Assembly (NCBI GenBank): GCA_029267335.1
Contig: JAJUJC010000001.1
Coordinates: 248,001 to 312,000, forward strand
Reading direction: 5' to 3'
From: Intestinibacillus massiliensis
Lineage (GTDB): Bacteria; Bacillota; Clostridia; Oscillospirales; Butyricicoccaceae
Length of the DNA: 64,000 nt
The notes under the pieces are model-generated. The model had not been told where the DNA came from. It worked only from the letters and a program-made list of their open reading frames with translations, and did not search any database. This document shows, in pieces, positions 1,219 through 12,406 of the stretch. Both the position numbers and the translations under genes were made by a program. Position 1 is the first letter of the stretch. Each line of letters opens with the position of its first letter.

Positions 1219-2250
1219 TTAAAGCTCAAACAGATATTTAAAGCCTTCACAGCTCCGGTATGCATCAAACGCTTCTTCCCAATGTTCGAGCGGATAAATT
1301 CCGCTGATGAGTCGGTTCAGATTCAGTTGTTTCTGTCGCAGCAGTTCGATCGCACGCGTCCACCAGATCGGTTTTTGCGCGAAAGTGCCTATCACCGACA
1401 GATCCTTCATCACAATCAGATTCATATTCAGTGCGACCGGCTTGCCGGACAGACCAACCTGCACCATACGTCCGCCTTTTCGAACCGCACGCAGTGCTAT
1501 TGCAATTGCTGCTCCTGCACCAGAACACTCAAATACAATATCTGCGCCATCGCCCTGTGTTTTTTCTAGAATCTGTGCTTCTGCATCCGCATCATCTGAA
1601 AAAACGGTATGCTGTACGCCAAGCTGACGTGCGACTTCCAACTTATGCGCATCAGCATGCATACCGGCTAACGTAACCTCTGCACCGCATGCCAACGCAA
1701 GTTCTGCACACATCATGCCGATTGCCCCCGGTCCTGTAATTAGCACGCGATCACCTGCGCGTAAATTCCCTTTTTCGAGGACTGCTTGCGTGCAGCATGC
1801 CAATGGTTCAACCATTGCAGCTTCCGCCATGTCGATCTCTTGGGGAAGAACATGCAGCTTATGCGCCGGCACCACGACCCACTCTGCCATAGCGCCATCC
1901 ACACCGCTGCCAATCGACAAGCGTTCACTGCACAGATTGGGATACCCTGATTCACAGAATCTGCAATGTCCACAGGTGTGGAAGTACGTCTCACTGATAA
2001 CGCGTTTCCCGATCAGATCCTGACACACCCCATCTCCGACTGAATCGACAACGCCGGAGAATTCGTGTCCCAATATGACCGGCGGATTGGTATGGTATCC
2101 CCCATCGTCCAAAAAAATATGGATATCTGTACCGCAAATTCCTGCATAGCGTACCCGTACCACTGCCTGTCCAGCCGCGGCGTTTGGCTTTGGACGAACC
2201 ATAAGTTTGAGCTTACGTGAACCATCTTCATACTTTACCAATGCTTTCAT
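1219..2250 (-). CDS. Zinc-dependent medium-chain alcohol/polyol dehydrogenase
   Basis: A 343-residue protein of the sorbitol/threonine/galactitol-phosphate dehydrogenase type. Catalytic zinc ligands are visible in CGTDIHIF and GHEFSGVV (about residues 40-65). The structural-zinc cysteines are in CGHCRFCESGYPNLC (about 93-107). The Rossmann motif is GPGAIGMMCAELALACG (about 167-183). It most likely oxidises a polyol or sugar hydroxyl with NAD(P)+. A ribosome site AAGGAG lies 10 nt before the ATG. A strong terminator lies between it and the upstream permease gene, so it probably has its own promoter or depends on readthrough. It sits next to a sugar symporter and a sugar-sensing locus, which fits a catabolic role. 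The exact substrate is unknown. Confidence 0.9.
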   Translation of the reverse strand: MKALVKYEDGSRKLKLMVRPKPNAAAGQAVVRVRYAGICGTDIHIFLDDGGYHTNPPVILGHEFSGVVDSVGDGVCQDLIGKRVISETYFHTCGHCRFCESGYPNLCSERLSIGSGVDGAMAEWVVVPAHKLHVLPQEIDMAEAAMVEPLACCTQAVLEKGNLRAGDRVLITGPGAIGMMCAELALACGAEVTLAGMHADAHKLEVARQLGVQHTVFSDDADAEAQILEKTQGDGADIVFECSGAGAAIAIALRAVRKGGRMVQVGLSGKPVALNMNLIVMKDLSVIGTFAQKPIWWTRAIELLRQKQLNLNRLISGIYPLEHWEEAFDAYRSCEGFKYLFEL

Positions 2251-2360
2251 TATTTTGTGCTCCTTTGATTGGATTCCGGATCCTGCCTTTATTGTATCGA
2301 AAAACCACGTTCAAACAATGCCACCATCTTTCGAAAATGTGCATTATACTAAATATGAGA

Positions 2361-2409
2361 AAAAAATTGCGCCTAATATTAGTGCTATATGCACAAATAT
2401 TAGGCGCAA
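2361..2409 (-). terminator. Rho-independent terminator after the ribose-type permease
   Basis: Perfect 14-bp arms at 2367-2380 and 2396-2409 are followed, on the minus strand, by a run of T (the A-run at 2361-2366). It lies just downstream of the permease stop and closes the sensory/ABC operon. Confidence 0.85.
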
Positions 2410-2425
2410 AACACGCTTACTCCAT

Positions 2426-3430
2426 TCATTTCAGATGGTCATGCCGCGAAACACGCTGTAACCATACTGCCAAGATAATAATACTCCCTTTCATCACCTG
2501 CTGCACATAGGGGGAAAACGCAAAAAGATTCATGGCGTTCTGACTCAATCCCCAAATCAATGTCCCGCATATTGTGCCAAATACAGTGCCGCTGCCGCCG
2601 GACAAACTGACACCCCCTAAAATAATTGCCGTAATCGCATCCAACTCAATACTGCTTCCGATACCCGGGGTGCCTGTGCAGGTGCGTGCGGTCACAACGA
2701 TCCCTGCTGCGGCATACAGTGTTCCTGCGAGCATATATGCCAAACACTTATACCGTGACGCATGAATGCCCGCAAAGCGAACCGCTTGTTCGTCCGCACC
2801 GCACGCGGCGAGTAAGCGTCCACATCGAGAATATTTCTGCAAGAAGGATAGAAGCACCGCACAAATGATTGCTGTCAGAACCACATATGGAATGCGGAAA
2901 AGCGGCGTTTCCGCACGTCCAAACAGCAGCAGCGCGCGTCCGGCTTGACTGAGCGCGGAAACTCGCACAGACTGTCCTTGCGACAAGAGATATGTCAATC
3001 CTCGCGCCACTGACATCATTGCAATCGTGATAATAAACGGTTCCATCTTGAGATAGCCGATCAATAGCCCGTTGCATGCCCCAAGGATTGCGCCGCAAAG
3101 CAGGGTCAGGAATACTGCGAAGCAGGCACCTTGTACGCTGGATAAGTTCCCGTAAGCAATCAGGACGGAAATCATCATACCGCCGAAAGCCTCGACGGCA
3201 CCCGCAGAAAAATCAATACCTCCGGTCAGAACGATCAGGAGCATGCCGAGCGCAATTAAAAATAGCGGTGTGAGCTGACGCAGAAGATTGCGTACATTCT
3301 GTCCCGAAAAAAACGCGGGAAACAATAACAACAGCATTCCGGATAGGATAAGCAGCATCACTCCCGCTCGCAATCCCCCAGTGGTGTAGTGTTTCGCCCA
3401 TTTTTTCACATGTGTATCCCTATCTTTCAC
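2426..3430 (-). CDS. RbsC-type sugar ABC transporter permease
   Basis: A 334-residue polytopic membrane protein of the CUT2 (ribose/xylose/galactose) permease family. It has about 8-10 hydrophobic segments, the family segment LTGGIDFSAGAVEAFGG (about residues 68-84), and the C-terminal ITAIILGGVSLSGGSGTVFGT loop. Unlike its ATPase partner, the permease looks intact. GTG is the likely start, with GGGGGGAGAAGT just before it. It is the last gene of a five-gene operon and lies 15 bp after the ATPase-like gene. With an ABC partner that has lost its ATP-binding motifs, it may act as a membrane platform for sensing rather than as a pump. It could also borrow an ATPase from elsewhere, although CUT2 systems rarely do. 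Confidence 0.85.
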   Translation of the reverse strand: MKDRDTHVKKWAKHYTTGGLRAGVMLLILSGMLLLLFPAFFSGQNVRNLLRQLTPLFLIALGMLLIVLTGGIDFSAGAVEAFGGMMISVLIAYGNLSSVQGACFAVFLTLLCGAILGACNGLLIGYLKMEPFIITIAMMSVARGLTYLLSQGQSVRVSALSQAGRALLLFGRAETPLFRIPYVVLTAIICAVLLSFLQKYSRCGRLLAACGADEQAVRFAGIHASRYKCLAYMLAGTLYAAAGIVVTARTCTGTPGIGSSIELDAITAIILGGVSLSGGSGTVFGTICGTLIWGLSQNAMNLFAFSPYVQQVMKGSIIILAVWLQRVSRHDHLK

Positions 3431-3445
3431 ACTTCTCCCCCCTTT

Positions 3446-4870
3446 TTACCGCTCAATGTCCGGCAATTCGTATACAGTTTCTGTGTTTAATACTTGTATG
3501 CGATCGCAGCAGCGCCGCAACTCTTGTGCGCTGGGCGAAAGGATCACAAACGCCGTGCCGCGTGCCCGCATTAACGAAAGATAGTCAATCAGGATATTTT
3601 GATGCAGAATATCCGAGTGGGAAAATGGGCGATAGCATAGCAACACAATGGGATCACATAAATACCAACGCAACAAAATTATGCGCAGACACGACAAATG
3701 ATCTAAATCCGAAAGAGATCTTGCGCGCAGCATACTGTCTGCAAGCCCTACTGCCTCTCTTCCCTGCTCAATGCGTTCATATGACAGCGGCTGCTGCAGC
3801 TGCTGCGCTAAAATAGTCGCATTTTGCAAAGGTGTCAGCATGGGCAGAAGCTGCCGGCGAACCGATAGATCATCAAGCAGCCCAACGCGTGCACGCAGCG
3901 CATCACGCAGTCCGTGATTTGGCGAAAGCAATTGATCAGCAACTGTTATGCGGGCACTTGGCGGCAGCGGATTGTCTCCTGACAAGTAGCGCAAAGGCTG
4001 CATATCGCTGTCGTTAAGTGGATCAAGCAGTCCCAAAATTTCTCCTCGGTATACAATGAATGAAACCGTCCCTGCCGCGCTAGGCACACGCTCCGCCCGC
4101 ATATATATCGTGTTGTCAGGCGTCCGTTTTTCTATCACATGTCCTACTACGGGTGTACCGGATAGAATCGTCAGTAAGGATGAATGCGGATAGTGCGCAG
4201 GAATATCGAAAACATTCTGCCCCTCGCGTAATACAATTGCATGGCGACAGTGATGCAGTAATACATCTGGACGCTCGAGTAAAAGCACGATTGCCATGCC
4301 TGATGCGCATAGCTGTCGAAAGATCGTGAGCAGCGCCGCGTTGTCCGCATCTCCCAGCGTACGGTCAGTGCAATCCACAATGGCGCACACCGCACACTCA
4401 CGCCATGCTTTTACGAGCTGTACAATCAAATTTTGTCGGATTGTCAACTGTTTTGCGGCAAGACGGCTATTGATTGACACCCCGAATTGCCTGAACATTG
4501 CGTCACAGCGCGCAATTTGTTGTTTTTCCCGTATCAACTGCCTGTGCACACCGGGCGATGCCACCAGTATATTTTCCGCAACGGTCATCGTGCTTATCAG
4601 GCCCTCGGACGGCGTCACATATCGGATGCCTGCATTGCGCATCATCTGCGGATCACCTGATCGCAGCTCTCTACCGTACAACCGGATGCTTCCGCCATCC
4701 GGTTGTATCCAGCCGGTGAGCACCCGCGCGAGAGTGCGTTTTCCTGCATGTCGGAGTCCCAGAATACCGTGTAGACAGTCCGCGCGAATCAGCATATGAA
4801 AATCGCGAAGAGCTGATCCGCTTGCCAAACGCACATGTAGTCCCTGAATCGAAAGCAGCTCACGTTCCAT
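3446..4870 (-). CDS. Degenerate RbsA-like tandem ABC ATPase homologue (probable pseudoenzyme)
   Basis: A 474-residue protein with the length and two-domain layout of RbsA/MglA/XylG sugar ATPases, but the catalytic motifs are eroded in both halves. In domain 1 the Walker A reads GLRHAGKRT (R where S/T is required). The signature is LTIRQN instead of LSxGQ. Walker B is CAIVDCTDRT instead of LILDEPT. The switch histidine is absent (LLLERPD where ISHRL is expected). In domain 2 the P-loop region reads LGLLDPLNDSD and Walker B reads VLLCYRPFS. The frame is fully open and overlaps the kinase gene by 11 bp, so it is maintained rather than decaying. Start chosen at the ATG preceded by GGAGGATCCTC; an upstream in-frame ATG lacks such a site. 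It is probably a structural or signalling subunit coupling the lipoprotein, permease and kinase. Confidence 0.8.
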   Translation of the reverse strand: MERELLSIQGLHVRLASGSALRDFHMLIRADCLHGILGLRHAGKRTLARVLTGWIQPDGGSIRLYGRELRSGDPQMMRNAGIRYVTPSEGLISTMTVAENILVASPGVHRQLIREKQQIARCDAMFRQFGVSINSRLAAKQLTIRQNLIVQLVKAWRECAVCAIVDCTDRTLGDADNAALLTIFRQLCASGMAIVLLLERPDVLLHHCRHAIVLREGQNVFDIPAHYPHSSLLTILSGTPVVGHVIEKRTPDNTIYMRAERVPSAAGTVSFIVYRGEILGLLDPLNDSDMQPLRYLSGDNPLPPSARITVADQLLSPNHGLRDALRARVGLLDDLSVRRQLLPMLTPLQNATILAQQLQQPLSYERIEQGREAVGLADSMLRARSLSDLDHLSCLRIILLRWYLCDPIVLLCYRPFSHSDILHQNILIDYLSLMRARGTAFVILSPSAQELRRCCDRIQVLNTETVYELPDIER

Positions 4871-5885
4871 GAGGATCCTCCACATCACGCCGGCTCGGAT
4901 GAGCTGGTAGGATAAGTTCCATCTCTGTACCACACTGGGGTGTGCTTTTCACAAACATACCGCAGTTGTCCCCATAAAGCAGTTGGAGCTGCCGACGGAT
5001 ATTGCACAATGCAATTCCGTTATGCCGTGCCTCTGAGTCGACCGATGCGCTCTGTTCTTGCAAACAATCCCGCAGCATACGGTTAATTTCCTGCACACGG
5101 TCCTCACTCATGCCGACTCCGTCATCATAAATGTGGATTACCAGACTATGTTCTGTACGCTCGAGCCGTATCAGCACGCGACCCGCGCCCGGTCTCCCTT
5201 CTAGACCATGGGAAATCGCATTCTCCACAATGGGTTGCAAAATCAGCTTGGGCACCGGATAAGAACTGAGCCAGGTGTCATCGCTGCCGGTATCAACAGA
5301 TAACCGAAACCGATCCTCGAACCGGTACTGCTGTATTTTGAAGTAGTTGCGTACATTGTTGAGTTCCTCTTCCAATGTAACATAGCTTCCTTTTCGACTG
5401 ATACTATATCGAAAAAAGTTTCCTAAAGTCTCCACCATCTCCGCAATGCCCCGTTCCTGATGACACAGTGCCTCACTACGCACACATTCCAATGTATTAT
5501 ACAAAAAGTGTGGATTGATCTGGCTTTGCAGCGCAGAAAAAAGCGCGCCTTTTTCCGCGATCTCCTCCTTATAGCGCTGCACGGAAATTTCATACTGACT
5601 GGTCAAGACATACTTCAGTTGGCGTGTGACCGACAGTTTTGCCGGAAAATCGGAAAAATTAGGTTGTACAACATCAAATTTCGCCATAAAGTCCGAAATT
5701 GATAGTAATTCAAGTGCGTAATATGCCAAGAATAAAATGCCTGCAATGCCTCCGAGCAATGGTACGATCCACAGCCATGCATGCCGAACAGCAGCTGCAC
5801 CCATGCAGCATAATAATGTGCCGATCATCAGTGCGGCGGCCGCTTTGGCCAGCAGACTGCGCATCTGATAGCGGTATCTGTTCAT
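4860..5885 (-). CDS. LytS/YesM-type sensor histidine kinase with minimal membrane domain
   Basis: A 341-residue kinase. Two hydrophobic segments (about residues 10-35 and 39-60) have almost no extracytoplasmic loop. After them come the His_kinase motif QSQINPHFLYNTLECVRSEA (phospho-His in NPHFLYN, about residue 137) and an HATPase domain with PKLILQPIVENAISHG and IHIYDDGVGMS. With no sensor domain of its own, it must get its input from a partner. The gene overlaps the preceding sugar-binding lipoprotein gene by 4 bp, as in XylFII-LytS-YesN type three-component systems. It is expected to phosphorylate the YesN-type regulator encoded at the head of the operon. Confidence 0.9.
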   Translation of the reverse strand: MNRYRYQMRSLLAKAAAALMIGTLLCCMGAAAVRHAWLWIVPLLGGIAGILFLAYYALELLSISDFMAKFDVVQPNFSDFPAKLSVTRQLKYVLTSQYEISVQRYKEEIAEKGALFSALQSQINPHFLYNTLECVRSEALCHQERGIAEMVETLGNFFRYSISRKGSYVTLEEELNNVRNYFKIQQYRFEDRFRLSVDTGSDDTWLSSYPVPKLILQPIVENAISHGLEGRPGAGRVLIRLERTEHSLVIHIYDDGVGMSEDRVQEINRMLRDCLQEQSASVDSEARHNGIALCNIRRQLQLLYGDNCGMFVKSTPQCGTEMELILPAHPSRRDVEDPHGT

Positions 5886-7120
5886 GAGCCGTGCTCCTCT
5901 CGCCCGTGCATATACCGTCGGTACAAAATGGGAATATCTCGGGCAAATCCGCTGTGTGGATCATCCGGCAAAAAAGTATCGACATTTTCGCGGTGGATCG
6001 TAACCGGAATGTTCTGCAAATACAGCGGCAAGTCCGATGCATCTTCTCCCCGCACAAAAATATCGTAAATCAAATCTATCGCAGCCTTTGCTTGTATGCG
6101 AGGATTGTTATATCCGGTGCAGAGCAACTCGCCCTGTCGGATCATATCAAGCGCGCGACGCGTGCCATCGGCGGCCGCAGCGAGCAGCGTTTTTCCCGTT
6201 CTGCCCGCTGCATGGATTGCTTGTGCCGCGCCAAATGCCATCACATCGTTTTCACACAGCAGCAAATCCATATCCGGATAGGCATAGAGCAGGTTTTCGG
6301 TCGCCGTCAATCCGCCCTCTTCCTGCCAATTTCCCCAACCTTGTGCAACTAAAACGACGTTATATTCCGCATTTTCCGCATGTCCGTTCTTCATCAGCGC
6401 ATCCATCAGCGCATTTGCGGCGTGGTCGATTTGGCTTTCAGTTTGACCGGATGACCGCATATGCAGCACCCCGGTCAACATGCCGAAGGTGCGGCTCTCG
6501 CCCTGTGCATTTCCCGGTCGTCCCGAAAGGACACCGATGCGTAAGAGATTGCTGTTACAATGCGATGCCGCATACTGCCCTACCAGCATTCCCGTGCGAT
6601 AGCTGTCCGATGAAAACAGCGTGATAATAGGTGCGTCTGCGTTCACGCCTCCGTCCACCGCAATGACCGGAATGCCTGCTTGTACCGCTCTGCGAATATC
6701 TGCGACGTTTCCAATTGGATCTCGTAGATCAGCAATAATGCAGTCAACACCCTGCGCGATCAGACTGTCAAATGAGCTTGACTGCTTCTCCATATCATCA
6801 GAGGCATCGGTATAAACGAACCGCATGCCATAACCCTCTGCGCACTGTGCCGCATACCGAACTTCCTCCATAAAAAACGGATTTGCTAAGGTAAATGCGC
6901 TAAAGCCGACTGTAATCTGATGTGCATCGCGCGGCTCAATCTTTTGCAGGCAGCGCTGCACCAAAGCACGATTTTCGGCATCAGGCTGCAGCTGCGTTAA
7001 TACACGAAAATTTGTACTACTGTCTTGATGGAGCGTTTGTGCATCCACTGCCGGATCCTGCAGCGTGCAGCCCGAAAGCAACAGCACCTCCAGCCAGACG
7101 ACCAGCCTCCATACCTTCAT
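5882..7120 (-). CDS. RbsB-type periplasmic sugar-binding lipoprotein (sensor component)
   Basis: A 412-residue protein with a lipoprotein signal peptide (lipobox LLSGC, Cys about residue 18). It has a type-1 periplasmic-binding fold of the LacI/RbsB kind: TVGFSAFTLANPFF, GVDCIIADLRDP, GIPVIAVDGGVN, LLLCENDVMAFGAAQAIHAAG. An extra tail of about 30 residues (NVDTFLPDD to the end) follows the usual end of the fold and could contact membrane partners. It overlaps the regulator gene upstream and the kinase gene downstream by 4 bp each (ATGA), which implies translational coupling. It probably binds an extracellular sugar and passes the signal to the LytS-type kinase. Confidence 0.9.
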   Translation of the reverse strand: MKVWRLVVWLEVLLLSGCTLQDPAVDAQTLHQDSSTNFRVLTQLQPDAENRALVQRCLQKIEPRDAHQITVGFSAFTLANPFFMEEVRYAAQCAEGYGMRFVYTDASDDMEKQSSSFDSLIAQGVDCIIADLRDPIGNVADIRRAVQAGIPVIAVDGGVNADAPIITLFSSDSYRTGMLVGQYAASHCNSNLLRIGVLSGRPGNAQGESRTFGMLTGVLHMRSSGQTESQIDHAANALMDALMKNGHAENAEYNVVLVAQGWGNWQEEGGLTATENLLYAYPDMDLLLCENDVMAFGAAQAIHAAGRTGKTLLAAAADGTRRALDMIRQGELLCTGYNNPRIQAKAAIDLIYDIFVRGEDASDLPLYLQNIPVTIHRENVDTFLPDDPHSGFARDIPILYRRYMHGREEHGS

Positions 7121-8706
7121 GGGCTGACCTCGATTCTGTAGTGCAGCCGCCGATATTCTGTCGGCTTCAACCCTACGGTCTTCAAAAAAATTCGCGAAAA
7201 ATATCTTGGATCGGTATAGCCCACGCGATATGCAATGTCGCCGATACGGTCGTCTGAGGTTTTCAGCAACTCTCTTGCCGCATTCATGCGCACCTGTACG
7301 ACATAATCGAGAAAACTAATGCCTGTCTCGCGCTTAAACAATACAGAAAAATAAGTTGCGTTCATGCCGACCAATGTGGCAACATCCTCCAGTGTGAGTT
7401 TGTCCGCATAGTTTTCGCAAATATACTGTTTTGCCAAGTGAATGGGTTTTTTCCCGGTCTCCATCTTTTTTTGATAATAGCCGTGCATTTCATCTCTAAC
7501 CAGATTTTCCATATGGTCGAACAGTTCGCGCGCGGTGATGCTAATGTCAACAATCGCCGCATATTGCTCCGTCAAGCGCTGCCAATCGCTTTGCGCATCT
7601 AAAGTTGACCAAAAATCACGAAACAGTGAGAAAATCTGATCTGCGGTTACAAATGCAAGTTCGGATATATTTTCTGCCTGTGAACGCACTGCCTGATATG
7701 TACCAAAAAACCAATCCGCCATTTGCTCGATCTGTATACCTTCCAGCAGCCGTAAGAATGTCTTTCTGCGTTCCGCCGTGAGCACGGTGCCAACATCCGG
7801 TGCATTGGGTATCACGCCCTGCATGTAAATCACCTGATCCACACCACACTGCAACCGCTGTCGAATCCCATATTCTGTCTGTGTGATAGCGTCTCCGGTC
7901 ATCGCGATATCTTGATAGGTCGTGCTTGCGCTGACTACCACATGGCAGACCGTGACTAATGTGCGACATGCCCTTAGCTCGCGCAGCAGTTGTTTTCCAC
8001 TTTCTTCAAGCACGAAAGAATCTCCGCCTATCAGTACATATAGACTGCTTTCATACTGCACCGACGTATGGTCAATTCCGTTTGATTGCAGCGCGGAACG
8101 CACCAATAGAGACAACTTTCCTTTTTGCACGGTATACTCTGATAAACAATGCTCCCCCCGCGGATATAAATGCACACATAGCATACGATAGCACGTTCCT
8201 ACAGGCGGATAATGTATTGCAAGCATCTTGCGCTCCGAAGTCGACGCCGATACGAGCGTATGCAGTTCATTGCGCCGTAGAAGTGACTCCTGCTCCAGTA
8301 AAACGGTATTTTGCATGCGTTGCGTCGCACGGCTATCCAATTCCTTGCAAATCTGTTTGAGTACTTGATTCAGTTCCTGCTCGTTGATTGGTTTTAAAAG
8401 ATAGCTTTGTACATGCATCTGCATGGCAGCATGTGCATAATCGAACTCACGATATCCGCTGATAATGACGCACCGGATGCCTGGATACATTTTTTGCACA
8501 TTTTGGATCAGTGATAAACCGTTTGTACTGGACATTCGAATATCCGTTAGGATAATATCTACGGTCTGCGTATTCAAAATCGAAAGCGCCTGCTCCGCGC
8601 TTTCTGCCAAACCGACACAATGCAATCCCAGCCGCTCCCAATCAATCAAAATTCGAATGAGCTGTCGAACCTTTTTTTCATCATCTACAATGAGCACCTG
8701 ATACAA
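7117..8706 (-). CDS. YesN-type response regulator with AraC DNA-binding domain
   Basis: A 530-residue cytoplasmic regulator. It has an N-terminal receiver domain (YQVLIVDDEKKVRQL; phospho-Asp in IILTDIRM about residue 54; Lys in LLKPINEQEL), a middle region of about 270 residues typical of YesN proteins, and a C-terminal AraC double helix-turn-helix (LTLEDVATLVGMNATYFSVL and IGDIAYRVGYTDPRYFSRIF). Start chosen at a TTG preceded by AAAGGAG at 10 nt. An ATG 39 bp upstream (8745) lacks a ribosome site. It heads the operon of regulator, lipoprotein, kinase, ABC-like protein and permease. Likely targets are this operon and the neighbouring sugar genes. Confidence 0.9.
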   Translation of the reverse strand: MYQVLIVDDEKKVRQLIRILIDWERLGLHCVGLAESAEQALSILNTQTVDIILTDIRMSSTNGLSLIQNVQKMYPGIRCVIISGYREFDYAHAAMQMHVQSYLLKPINEQELNQVLKQICKELDSRATQRMQNTVLLEQESLLRRNELHTLVSASTSERKMLAIHYPPVGTCYRMLCVHLYPRGEHCLSEYTVQKGKLSLLVRSALQSNGIDHTSVQYESSLYVLIGGDSFVLEESGKQLLRELRACRTLVTVCHVVVSASTTYQDIAMTGDAITQTEYGIRQRLQCGVDQVIYMQGVIPNAPDVGTVLTAERRKTFLRLLEGIQIEQMADWFFGTYQAVRSQAENISELAFVTADQIFSLFRDFWSTLDAQSDWQRLTEQYAAIVDISITARELFDHMENLVRDEMHGYYQKKMETGKKPIHLAKQYICENYADKLTLEDVATLVGMNATYFSVLFKRETGISFLDYVVQVRMNAARELLKTSDDRIGDIAYRVGYTDPRYFSRIFLKTVGLKPTEYRRLHYRIEVSP

Positions 8707-8760
8707 GATGAATCGACTCCTTTCGCAATGTGTGTCAATAATCATCGGAATAACACTATT

Positions 8761-8802
8761 AAAAAAACGATAGCCGCCCGTTTTTCGTACGGACGGCTAT
8801 CG
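8761..8802 (-). terminator. Rho-independent terminator after the SSS symporter
   Basis: On the minus strand, arms CGATAGCCG/CGGCTATCG (8794-8802 and 8768-8776) with additional pairing toward the loop are followed by a run of seven T. It separates the symporter gene from the response-regulator operon. Confidence 0.8.
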
Positions 8803-8904: not shown

Positions 8905-10641
8905 TTAAGCCTCAGTTTCTTCGGTGTCCGCATAGAATCTGTCTTCGCGCGACTTAAATGCTTTTTTCAGACCCATGACCAGACAAATGGATGCGATAAG
9001 ACCAATCAGCAAGTAGATCGCTGTGATAGTATTTGCACCACCAACACGCGCGATACCGACAGGTGACAGGAGAATGAAGCCATCCACGACAAGTGCAACC
9101 AGAAAAGCACTGAACTCATACCGATACTTCCAAGGCTTCATATTAACAATATGCAGATTTTTGAGCTCGAAAATATCTTTTTTGGGCTTCACCGCTGCCA
9201 TAACAAACATGAACACAACCGCAATGACAAAGTTGATACCAATGCGATGGAGATAGTTCATGTTGGGCAGGAGTACATAGCTCAGACCATAACCGATTGC
9301 ATAGAGTAGCGCTGCGAGTTTTGCAGCAATCGCCGGTGCTCTTTTATTCAGATAACCGACGCCAAGCATGATCAGGATCGGGACATTGGTAAAGCCATTG
9401 ATCTGCTGCAAATAGGTGAAGATACCCGAAGGGGTATAATAAAGCAGCGGCGCGACTACGCAGGACACAATCGCAATCACAATGCCAAATTGCTTGCCCA
9501 ACTTGACCATTTTGCGCTCATCTGTATTATCCTTCATTCTAGGATTAATTACGTTCAAGGAAAGCAACGTCGTCGTACTGCTTAGCAGACCACAGAAAGT
9601 ACTGAGCACTGCGCCGAACATTGCAGCGGCAAAAATACCGCGAAGTGCGGGCGGCAGAACAATATTAACCAACGTAGGGTACACAAGATCTCTGGAACCG
9701 TCCATAGCAATACCCTGCTTGGCAAATACCTGATATGCAATCAGTCCGGGCACCATGAGCAGTAGCGGATCGAGGACTTTCAGTAAACCTGCCCACAGTA
9801 GTCCCTTCTGTCCATGCTTCAGATTTTTGGCAGCAATTGCTCTTTGCAGGATCGCCTGATCCATACCCCAGAAATACATACACAGCAGAAAGACACCCGT
9901 AAAGTTTGTCCCAAACGGGTTAATATCCGACGGGCTGCCGACTGCGTTAAGCTTTTCGGGATTATGCGTCAGAACCTCGCGAATACCCGAGATAAAATTG
10001 CCATCTCCAAGGAAAATGAAACCAAAAACTACTACCAGCGTACCGCCGATCACAAGCAGAATGCCATTGATGATGTCTGCAGTGGCTACCATTTTCAGCC
10101 CACCATACAGCGCGTAAATACTGCCAATCACACCAATGACGACGATAATACCGGTCATCGCTGCGACAAACGATACATTGAGCAGTGTGTCGATATTAAA
10201 CAGTCTTACCAGAACCACAGAGCCGGAATAAAGCGTAATGGGCAGCATATTCGCCATATACGCAAAAATAATAATGTAGGTCGCCAGATTCTTTGTCGAT
10301 TTATCATAGCGCTGTTCTAGAAAATCAGGCATTGTGGTAATGCCTTGCTTCAAATATCTCGGAATGAGAAACATCGCCGAAATAATAATGCAAATTCCGG
10401 AAAACCAGTCAAAACCAATGGTCGAAAGGTTTTTATACCACGTATCTCCTGTAAATCCTACGAAATGCGTTGCACTTGTGTTACTTAGCAGTAGTCCGAT
10501 GGCGATGACGCCGGCCGTCATAGAGCGACCACCCAGAAAGAAGCCTGATTTTTCTTTCTTATCCACATCTCGACTATTAAACCACGCAAAAAATAAAACA
10601 AATAACGTGGCCAACACAAATACCGATACCGTTAAAAACAT
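8905..10641 (-). CDS. SSS-family sodium:solute (sugar) symporter
   Basis: A 578-residue polytopic membrane protein of the sodium:solute symporter family, closest in feel to SglT/SGLT-like bacterial sugar carriers. It shows FFLGGRSMTAGVIAIGLLLSN early (about residues 35-55), ATHFVGFTGDTW, and roughly 13-14 hydrophobic segments. Start chosen at the ATG followed by FLTVSVF, preceded by GGGGGAAAAAC; the upstream in-frame extension is not hydrophobic and lacks a ribosome site. It lies alone with its own terminator between the sensory operon and the SDR gene. It is expected to import a sugar or related compound with Na+. The substrate is not evident. Confidence 0.88.
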   Translation of the reverse strand: MFLTVSVFVLATLFVLFFAWFNSRDVDKKEKSGFFLGGRSMTAGVIAIGLLLSNTSATHFVGFTGDTWYKNLSTIGFDWFSGICIIISAMFLIPRYLKQGITTMPDFLEQRYDKSTKNLATYIIIFAYMANMLPITLYSGSVVLVRLFNIDTLLNVSFVAAMTGIIVVIGVIGSIYALYGGLKMVATADIINGILLVIGGTLVVVFGFIFLGDGNFISGIREVLTHNPEKLNAVGSPSDINPFGTNFTGVFLLCMYFWGMDQAILQRAIAAKNLKHGQKGLLWAGLLKVLDPLLLMVPGLIAYQVFAKQGIAMDGSRDLVYPTLVNIVLPPALRGIFAAAMFGAVLSTFCGLLSSTTTLLSLNVINPRMKDNTDERKMVKLGKQFGIVIAIVSCVVAPLLYYTPSGIFTYLQQINGFTNVPILIMLGVGYLNKRAPAIAAKLAALLYAIGYGLSYVLLPNMNYLHRIGINFVIAVVFMFVMAAVKPKKDIFELKNLHIVNMKPWKYRYEFSAFLVALVVDGFILLSPVGIARVGGANTITAIYLLIGLIASICLVMGLKKAFKSREDRFYADTEETEA

Positions 10642-10869
10642 GTTTTTCCCCCGTATAAACTTAAAATGCCAGGACTTTGAATTGCTGTTTTTCGCTGCAT
10701 ATACTGACAATTTCGATCAGTCACCTATGCTTGTTCACTTTTTCATTTGATTTTGTATGCTGTTGTTCTGCGTCGATATAAGCTATATGTATGCGTCTAG
10801 CAATCGCAAAACCTTGAGAAGCGCTGAAAAGCAGGAAATGCCAAAACGTCCTTTTAACCAATACTTTAT

Positions 10870-11664
10870 TTAAATGCTGCGGATCAGACCGCCCTCCGCA
10901 CGGATGGTCGCGCCGTTCGTCGCAGCAGATACCTCAGAGCAGTAGTACACAACAGTAGCGGCGACTTCCTCTACTGTTGTGATACGCTGCAAAAGTTGTG
11001 TGGGCTCATATGTGATGAAATATTCGCGAATCGCCTGATCGAGCGCTTTTCCCTCGCGCCGCGCACGGTCTGTTTGATATGCCGCTGTATTTTCCGTCCA
11101 GGTTAGCCCCGGCAGTACAGAGTTCACAGCCACTCTTGTGCCCTTTGTGATCTCCGCGAGTGCACGTGCAAGACCGATTACCGCGGTTTTCGATACGCTA
11201 TAGTGAATCATATCCGTGAGCGGCTTGATGCCGCACTCACTGGCGATGAGCACGATACGTCCGCTGTTGCGTGCTAGCATCTTGGGCAGAAAGTGACGGC
11301 ACATGCGTATCTGAGAATAGAGATTGACGTTCATCATCCAATCCCATTCCTCATCTGAGATCTCCGCAAATGGCGTTCCCTTGTAAGTGCCCATATTCCC
11401 AACCAGAATATCAAGATCGCCCAAAGCATCCACTGCGTCGATGACCGCTTGCGCACCTTCTGCTGTTCCCAAATCGCCTACGGCCATGTGACATGTGCCA
11501 TATTGGGCTAACGCATTGGCGGTTTCTAACAGTGCTGCTTTATTACGCCCGTTAATGACCACGGTTGCGCCTTCTTGCAGCAGGCACTTGGCAATTCCCT
11601 TACCAATGCCCGCTGATGATCCGGTTACAAGCGCCAGTTTCCCTTTCATCTTCAGATCCATCAT
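10870..11664 (-). CDS. Short-chain dehydrogenase/reductase (SDR), KduD/FabG-like
   Basis: About 264 residues with the classical SDR signature: cofactor motif TGSSAGIGKGIAK near the N-terminus, NMGTYKG (the NAG-like motif), catalytic Ser in LIASECG, and Tyr-Lys in YSVSKTAV. It should carry out NAD(P)-linked oxidation or reduction of a sugar acid or polyol, as KduD-like enzymes beside hexuronate genes do. Two adjacent ATGs (11664 and 11661) follow AGGAGGTTAT, and the second has the better spacing. The upstream region shares two 10-11-mers with the IclR/transketolase promoter region at 19.9 kb, which hints at common control. Confidence 0.85.
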   Translation of the reverse strand: MMDLKMKGKLALVTGSSAGIGKGIAKCLLQEGATVVINGRNKAALLETANALAQYGTCHMAVGDLGTAEGAQAVIDAVDALGDLDILVGNMGTYKGTPFAEISDEEWDWMMNVNLYSQIRMCRHFLPKMLARNSGRIVLIASECGIKPLTDMIHYSVSKTAVIGLARALAEITKGTRVAVNSVLPGLTWTENTAAYQTDRARREGKALDQAIREYFITYEPTQLLQRITTVEEVAATVVYYCSEVSAATNGATIRAEGGLIRSI

Positions 11665-12406
11665 ATAACCTCCTGTTCTTTTATAAAACCCTTTCAGAGA
11701 CATTGTTAGTATAATATCAACATTGAGTTCCGTCAACAAAATTTGAGTTCAATAATATATAATTGTCGACAGCAACAAAAATAAAATTATATTGTTGTGT
11801 AATACGCTATATGTATTTACATGCGGAGCGCTGTGCATGCAACATTACTCCACAGCTCGACAAAGTGGATGAACAAATTGAAACGGTGCCAACACAAGCA
11901 ATATCAATGGATGCTCAAGAACAATCACTGCTGCGGCAAGGTAAAAAAAGGACCTGCCACCTGATCTTCACAGGCAGCAAGCCCTTTCGGCGGCTTGAGC
12001 AATGATCTACTTACATGCTTGTCTAGCTTTTGGGGTTTCATTCAGTGTCAAAGCGGAGGATTTTTTATTTTCAAATAGAATCCCGCCTTTGCATGCCAAA
12101 AGTAACCACGGCTTTGTCTTTTGAACGGTCATGTTCATATCTTTAAAGTTCGTGCAGTTCCAGATTTCCACGACGGATCTCGTGCTTTGTCATTTCATGC
12201 GGTGTAAGAGCTGTGGTTTATTGTTTAAAGTCAGCGGTCCGAGATGAGATACTTCAAACAGCTTTTTCTATTACAGTGTTTCATAATGGATACGCTCCAT
12301 ATTCCAACGGTCGGTGCGGTTCTACCGGTTTTTGCAGATAGGTACGCACACTGCGGCACTCAAAAATAGAATCCATCATCATTTTTCCTTTTCGTGTGAA
12401 ATGGCA
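11665..12406. other. Gene-poor stretch with coding remnants
   Basis: There is no convincing intact gene over about 740 bp. 11700-11800 is AT-rich promoter-like DNA for the SDR gene. On the minus strand at about 12195-12275, one frame reads KKLFEVSHLGPLTLNNK and then meets a stop. This resembles the N-terminus of old-yellow-enzyme flavin oxidoreductases (LFEPIKIGPLTLKNR). The following sequence is interrupted and unrecognised. A plus-strand open frame of 80 codons (11763-12005) has no family resemblance that I can see. I read this as decayed accessory DNA. Confidence 0.45.

Follow-up and report, generated by a model that had tools for sequence, protein, structure and literature searches.

We analysed a stretch of 64,000 nucleotides (nt) from Intestinibacillus massiliensis (contig JAJUJC010000001.1, positions 248,001 to 312,000), hereafter called the window, in which positions 2426-8706 hold a head-to-tail operon on the minus strand. 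In order, it encodes a YesN-type regulator, an RbsB-type lipoprotein, a LytS-type kinase, an RbsA-like ATP-binding cassette (ABC) protein that lacks a catalytic site, hereafter pseudo-RbsA, and an RbsC-type permease (Table 1). All five tightly packed genes of the original prediction were confirmed by Pfam; their successive junctions are overlaps of 4, 4 and 11 nt and a gap of 15 nt, and two terminator-like hairpins delimit the unit. The pseudo-RbsA frame is open over 474 codons and overlaps the kinase gene, as had been stated. The YesN gene begins with TTG at 8706, with AAAGGAG located 5' of this start and an ATG at 8745, and the Asp of its product is intact. The lipobox of the lipoprotein is likewise intact, and its closest solved structure is 4ry9 (E 4e-49), presumably a sugar-alcohol-bound entry, which would suit the dehydrogenase genes nearby. 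A PDB sequence search with the window permease gave no match.

Table 1. Features of the operon, of pseudo-RbsA and of the adjacent genes in the window (aa, amino acids).
Feature	Position	Strand	Basis or remark
YesN-type response regulator	7117-8706	-	Pfam Response_reg (1.1e-24) and HTH_AraC/HTH_18
RbsB-type sugar-binding lipoprotein, lipobox LLLSGC	5882-7120	-	Pfam Peripla_BP_4 (2.9e-41); 4-nt overlap with YesN gene
LytS-type histidine kinase, 341 aa	4860-5885	-	Pfam His_kinase PF06580 (2.1e-27) and HATPase_c; hydropathy; AlphaFold model
Pseudo-RbsA, tandem ABC protein of 474 aa without catalytic site	3446-4870	-	ABC_tran matches N half only (39 bits); fold retained in the model
RbsC-type permease, conserved cytoplasmic loop ILGGVSLSGGSG intact	2426-3430	-	Pfam BPD_transp_2 (3.2e-41); aligned to other RbsC
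Degenerate N-half Walker A GLRHAGKRT (intact RbsA GENGAGKST; Lys kept)	4733-4759	-	Alignment
Degenerate N-half Walker B CAIVDCTDR (intact VIVMDEPTS; catalytic Glu to Cys)	4361-4387	-	Alignment
Degenerate N-half switch loop LLLERPD (intact YISHKMD; His to Glu)	4265-4285	-	Alignment
Degenerate C-half Walker B VLLCYRPFSH (intact IIILDEPTRG)	3617-3646	-	Alignment
TVAEN segment kept after the Q-loop position	4571-4585	-	Asn conserved across pseudo-RbsA
Intrinsic-terminator-like hairpin TTGCGCCTAATATT / AATATTAGGCGCAA with T run, closing the operon	2357-2410	-	Read from sequence
Intrinsic-terminator-like hairpin between upstream symporter gene and YesN	8760-8802	-	Read from sequence
Sodium:solute symporter (PRK10484, above cut-off)	8905-10710	-	Same strand as operon, upstream; terminator-like hairpin between
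SDR dehydrogenase	10870-11739	-	Same strand as operon, upstream
Zn-dependent dehydrogenase	1219-2250		Downstream of operon

Pseudo-RbsA and its kinase in the window

Motifs were assigned by alignment of pseudo-RbsA to an intact RbsA of the same genome. In addition to the changes listed in Table 1, TPSE replaces HQEL at the Q-loop, with loss of the Gln, and LDHLSCL replaces LSGGNQQ at the C-half signature. It must be noted that, in the intact RbsA too, the N-half signature is non-canonical (LSVAQCQ), the C-half Walker A carries an Arg (GAGR) and a C-half switch His is missing. Since its second site is already degenerate, the diagnostic losses are those of the N-half Walker A, Walker B and His together with the C-half LSGGNQ, which correspond to one catalytic site. 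The motif calls that the original prediction made in both halves stand, but those at positions where the intact protein is already non-canonical are not diagnostic.

The NCBIfam models AraG, YtfR, XylG and RbsA match residues 4-465 of pseudo-RbsA, all below cut-off. Of the properties of an RbsA/CUT2 transport ATPase, the protein has the full-length tandem ABC homology and lacks the catalytic site. According to its AlphaFold model (predicted local distance difference test, pLDDT, 78), the tandem nucleotide-binding domain (NBD) fold is retained. The N half of the model aligns with the ABC ATPase 1ji0 (Z 24.1, 231 residues, root mean square deviation [rmsd] 3.5), and 454 residues of the whole chain align with the tandem NBD protein DppD (8wda_D) at an overall rmsd of 17.7 Å, which indicates that the domain arrangement differs.

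The kinase has no sensor domain, as the original prediction held. Hydropathy and the AlphaFold model give only a two-helix membrane hairpin (residues 3-32 and 36-76, separated by a turn of three residues), after which come a long helix in the cytoplasm and the core of the kinase. The catalytic boxes (NPHFLYN, the N box and DDGVGM) are intact.

A PF00005 scan of the genome found no ABC ATPase within the window besides pseudo-RbsA and gave a second, very weak tandem protein on another contig, C4. The gene order there is YesN, LytS (340 aa), degenerate RbsA-like and RbsC-like proteins, and then intact RbsA, RbsC and RbsB. Identity between the window and C4 copies is 41% for the kinases, 31% for the permeases and 24% for the pseudo-ATPases; the C4 copy is an old, diverged paralogue rather than the product of a recent duplication. 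An annotation or frame artefact is ruled out by the 474 open codons and by this independent paralogue.

Distribution, conservation and layout of the loci

A motif-less RbsA is encoded together with YesN and a short LytS at about 40 loci in Bacillota and at one in a Treponema metagenome-assembled genome (MAG), the hosts including many gut and anaerobic bacteria. Searches at family level that used the kinase and the pseudo-ATPase as queries, together with reading of the neighbourhoods, contributed 19 further loci. When the kinase alignment was run against GTDB genomes, 80 loci were returned, and the arrangement was present in all of the best nine (Pelethocola, Tepidanaerobacter, soil Bacillota, Herbinix, uncultured Firmicutes, two Lachnospiraceae, Treponema and Muricomes intestini) and in none of the 71 weaker ones, whose LytS kinases bear a sensor. 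In a phylum-wide search of 398 genomes, eight kinases matched at 394-442 bits, the next match being at 271, and all eight had the arrangement. Two more family searches added three loci that fit, one of them identical to the Tepidanaerobacter locus, so that two are independent; a sensor-bearing kinase found at 289 bits in these searches was without the arrangement. Conversely, when a profile of the pseudo-ATPase was searched at order level, every match above 300 bits (15/15) sat at a short kinase. The dead RbsA adjoins every examined member of the short-kinase clade and never the sensor-bearing LytS kinases. Chance association with LytS is ruled out by the contrast of 9/9 with 0/71 and by the gap in bit scores. 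The Treponema MAG (L183:8285-15932) holds the sole non-Bacillota locus found, which may reflect horizontal transfer or a binning error. Thousands of RbsA-family matches were obtained in a plasmid collection, the best at about 25% identity, and none was a close homologue of the Tepidanaerobacter pseudo-RbsA.

The catalytic set is absent in 34 of the 35 pseudo-RbsA that were scored beside short LytS/YesN genes, so the loss seen in the window is conserved among homologues in that setting. The original prediction had proposed that intact motifs in close relatives would make the gene a local pseudogene; the relatives proved degenerate instead, and the family is under purifying selection. The ratio of nonsynonymous to synonymous substitution rates (dN/dS) was 0.03-0.15 between close relatives where dS was measurable, values that are rough because dS is high, and it was up to a few-fold above that of the partner RbsA and far below 1. 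The exception, L130 (589-2112, plus strand; gene order pseudo-RbsA, YesN, LytS), is the least degenerate protein, with an intact N-half Walker A (GSNGVGKST), Walker B Glu (ADEP) and switch His, and with LSRGMQ in the C half. It is possibly an intermediate in the loss of catalysis.

Conservation was scored in 24 de-replicated pseudo-RbsA over 101 columns that are near-invariant in intact RbsA. Retention was 0% for the switch His, 4-8% for the signature glycines, 12% and 4% for the Walker B Glu and 38% for the Walker A Lys, but for the Asn of the xxEN segment after the Q-loop it reached 88% in the N half and 100% in the C half. In MalK-like NBDs, the segment after the Q-loop borders the pocket into which the coupling helix of the permease fits. 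In addition, an N-terminal motif specific to the family, M[KR]xEI, is conserved. In the tree, pseudo-RbsA and RbsA lie on opposite sides of one branch (100/99), L130 attaches near intact RbsA and the window protein is on a very long branch. Given the many long branches, no single origin of the catalytic loss is claimed.

Four layouts were distinguished. In layout (i), the commonest outside the family of the window, a hairpin kinase and pseudo-RbsA lie beside an intact RbsABC. Layout (ii), found at 12 loci in the family of the window, has a soluble kinase and pseudo-RbsA after an intact RbsABC. Layout (iii) is as layout (i) with an extra RbsC after pseudo-RbsA (L061, L127 and L177). The window represents layout (iv), with its own lipoprotein, its own RbsC and no intact RbsA in 64 kilobases (kb). 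Of 40 loci, 33 have an intact RbsA within 6 kb and one more has it at a distance of 6.03 kb; a contig edge accounts for L130, L133, L139 and L142 and a broken-looking copy for L131, and only the window is truly without one. At L131, the neighbouring RbsA is only an N-terminal piece of 242 aa, and the pseudo-RbsA frame (6701-8688, minus strand) also seems shifted near its C-terminus, by decay or assembly error.

The 12 soluble kinases have lost the hairpin too and are of about 272 aa, as judged by hydropathy for those scored; most of the remaining short kinases retain it. The pseudo-RbsA beside these kinases without membrane helix (L134-L142 and L144-L146) are the most uniform ones, with FPFAGQES and HHEMII motifs.

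Proposed role, alternatives and known systems

As the kinase is a bare hairpin, or soluble in 12 relatives, its input should come from a partner. The kinase boxes, YesN Asp, lipobox and permease loop are intact, and its co-occurrence with short kinases makes the ABC paralogue a well-supported candidate for this partner. With moderate confidence, we propose from the sequence that the 474-aa protein would be a dedicated signalling paralogue of RbsA, which would dock on RbsC and on the kinase and be read by LytS-YesN. It would take the place of RbsA on the RbsC dimer by means of its retained permease-contact surface, and would carry the kinase. The binding of sugar-loaded RbsB, or transporter turnover, would then be relayed from RbsC through pseudo-RbsA and LytS to YesN, which would turn on neighbouring sugar genes. 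In relatives with a shared RbsC, RbsA (the motor) and pseudo-RbsA (the reader) would compete for one site; the window system has a dedicated lipoprotein and permease but lacks a motor, and would therefore act purely as a receptor.

The transceptor reading of the original prediction is partly supported, in a broadened form. The scaffold of permease and pseudo-ATPase that it put forward suits the window and the three loci of layout (iii), but not most relatives, which have an intact RbsABC operon alongside and no extra permease. Since most relatives have none, the dead RbsA probably docks on the RbsC of the live transporter, and the window would be a derived autonomous form. More tentatively, and with some doubt, these loci could form a widespread class of bacterial receptors derived from ABC sugar importers, in which RbsC is shared by the motor and by a dead ATPase that carries a sensorless LytS, the window being the motorless receptor.

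Several observations weigh against this role. The model of the window pseudo-RbsA has a predicted template modelling score (pTM) of 0.49. The Walker A Lys, which the window protein shares with the above-mentioned fraction of relatives, leaves room for nucleotide binding, and the genome has, at other places, seven intact RbsA, one of which might serve the window RbsC. Moreover, a PDB sequence search with an intact RbsA yielded, at the threshold applied, other ABC families and no RbsA chain, so the case for permease contact relies on where the post-Q-loop segment generally lies rather than on a solved RbsABC.

Pseudo-RbsA might instead be a cytoplasmic ligand sensor or a kinase inhibitor that acts on LytS without any permease, the transporter being merely a regulated target. 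The soluble kinases of the 12 relatives and the lack of a dedicated permease there would agree with this, and the degenerate nucleotide pockets could be reused for another ligand. However, a permease gene directly follows pseudo-RbsA in the window, L061, L127 and L177, the membrane hairpin is kept by most other kinases, and few parts are as well kept as the segment by the permease-contact pocket; we regard this explanation as unlikely. It is quite improbable that pseudo-RbsA is a regulatory subunit of transport, which would slow import by competing for RbsC with the motor RbsA, and that LytS adjusts this effect instead of reading it. The two genes are indeed adjacent, often less than 300 base pairs apart, and homologous over their full length; nevertheless, the adjacency of LytS and pseudo-RbsA is nearly constant whereas their order relative to RbsABC varies (upstream, downstream or divergent), and in the window there is no neighbouring RbsA that could be restrained. 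A transport ATPase with an unusual active site, still powering uptake through the window RbsC, could explain the Walker A Lys of the window and the motifs retained by L130, but it is very improbable, because the window protein lacks the catalytic Glu, the switch His, the Q-loop Gln and LSGGQ, and relatives encode an intact RbsA alongside. Finally, a local RbsA pseudogene in decay, which the lost motifs and the very long branch of the window protein might evoke, is refuted for the family by the open frame, the loss conserved in 34 loci, the low dN/dS of relatives, and M[KR]xEI and other family-specific positions.

The proposed signalling role of pseudo-RbsA may be compared with several known systems. 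In XylFII-LytS-YesN and CuaD-CuaS-CuaR, the binding protein activates the extracytoplasmic domain of the kinase itself (XylFII-LytSN complex; CuaS of 627 aa) (PMC10384115). These systems, which control sugar uptake, share with the window a binding-protein gene beside the kinase and a YesN-type regulator; here, however, the kinase has no extracytoplasmic domain, and an ABC ATPase paralogue, accompanied by a permease at some loci, comes in between. In the Bce modules (BceAB-BceS), a short-hairpin kinase, also without extracytoplasmic domain, depends on an ABC transporter, and nucleotide binding by the working ATPase primes the complex (PMC10314905). The window differs in having a BPD_transp_2/RbsC permease (CUT2), a LytS-family kinase and a dead ATPase, in place of the BceB permease and an active BceA. 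In UhpC-UhpB and DctA-DcuS, a transporter or transporter paralogue is the receptor or co-sensor for the kinase (PMC5703999), but these use secondary carriers and no ABC importer or ATPase paralogue. By analogy, the proposed system would work most like the Bce modules and UhpC/UhpB or DctA/DcuS, yet it belongs to neither. With the CUT2 importers RbsABC, XylFGH and AraFGH, all three ABC parts are homologous over their full length and have the same fold, but the ATPase site of the window is destroyed and its operon is built around a kinase and a regulator. A transporter fold is also reused for kinase sensing in S-component/5TMR transceptors, LytS-type kinases included (PMC11109136); there, the ECF S-component-like domain is part of the kinase, whereas here a separate CUT2 importer paralogue is present.

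We found no published description of a dead RbsA paralogue in the open-access literature. Gut Bacillota have abundant LytS/YesN pairs, for many of which no input is known, and a conserved dead ABC ATPase beside a sensorless kinase offers a concrete, testable candidate partner. If the proposal is true, this would be, as far as we found, the first case of an ABC importer that became a receptor through the loss of its ATPase, with one permease serving uptake and sensing. Current annotation probably treats pseudo-RbsA as ordinary ATPases of sugar ABC transporters, in which case transporter counts and predictions of sugar uptake would need correction.

Neighbouring genes and minor observations

The symporter, SDR dehydrogenase and Zn-dependent dehydrogenase genes that flank the operon (Table 1) suggest a pathway of polyol or sugar oxidation. 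Judged from position, the genes regulated by the window system are probably the adjacent Na+ symporter and dehydrogenase genes. A search for regulatory repeats across the intergenic regions of the window cluster gave a single match, ATACATATAGC, which is too weak to use; this weak candidate operator is common to regions 11740-12060 and 10711-10869, before the SDR and symporter genes. At two other loci, RbsB-type proteins of unusual length were encoded, of 594 aa (L181:6129-7913) and 623 aa (L185:3535-5406), and the chain of the former matches two binding-protein domains in tandem.

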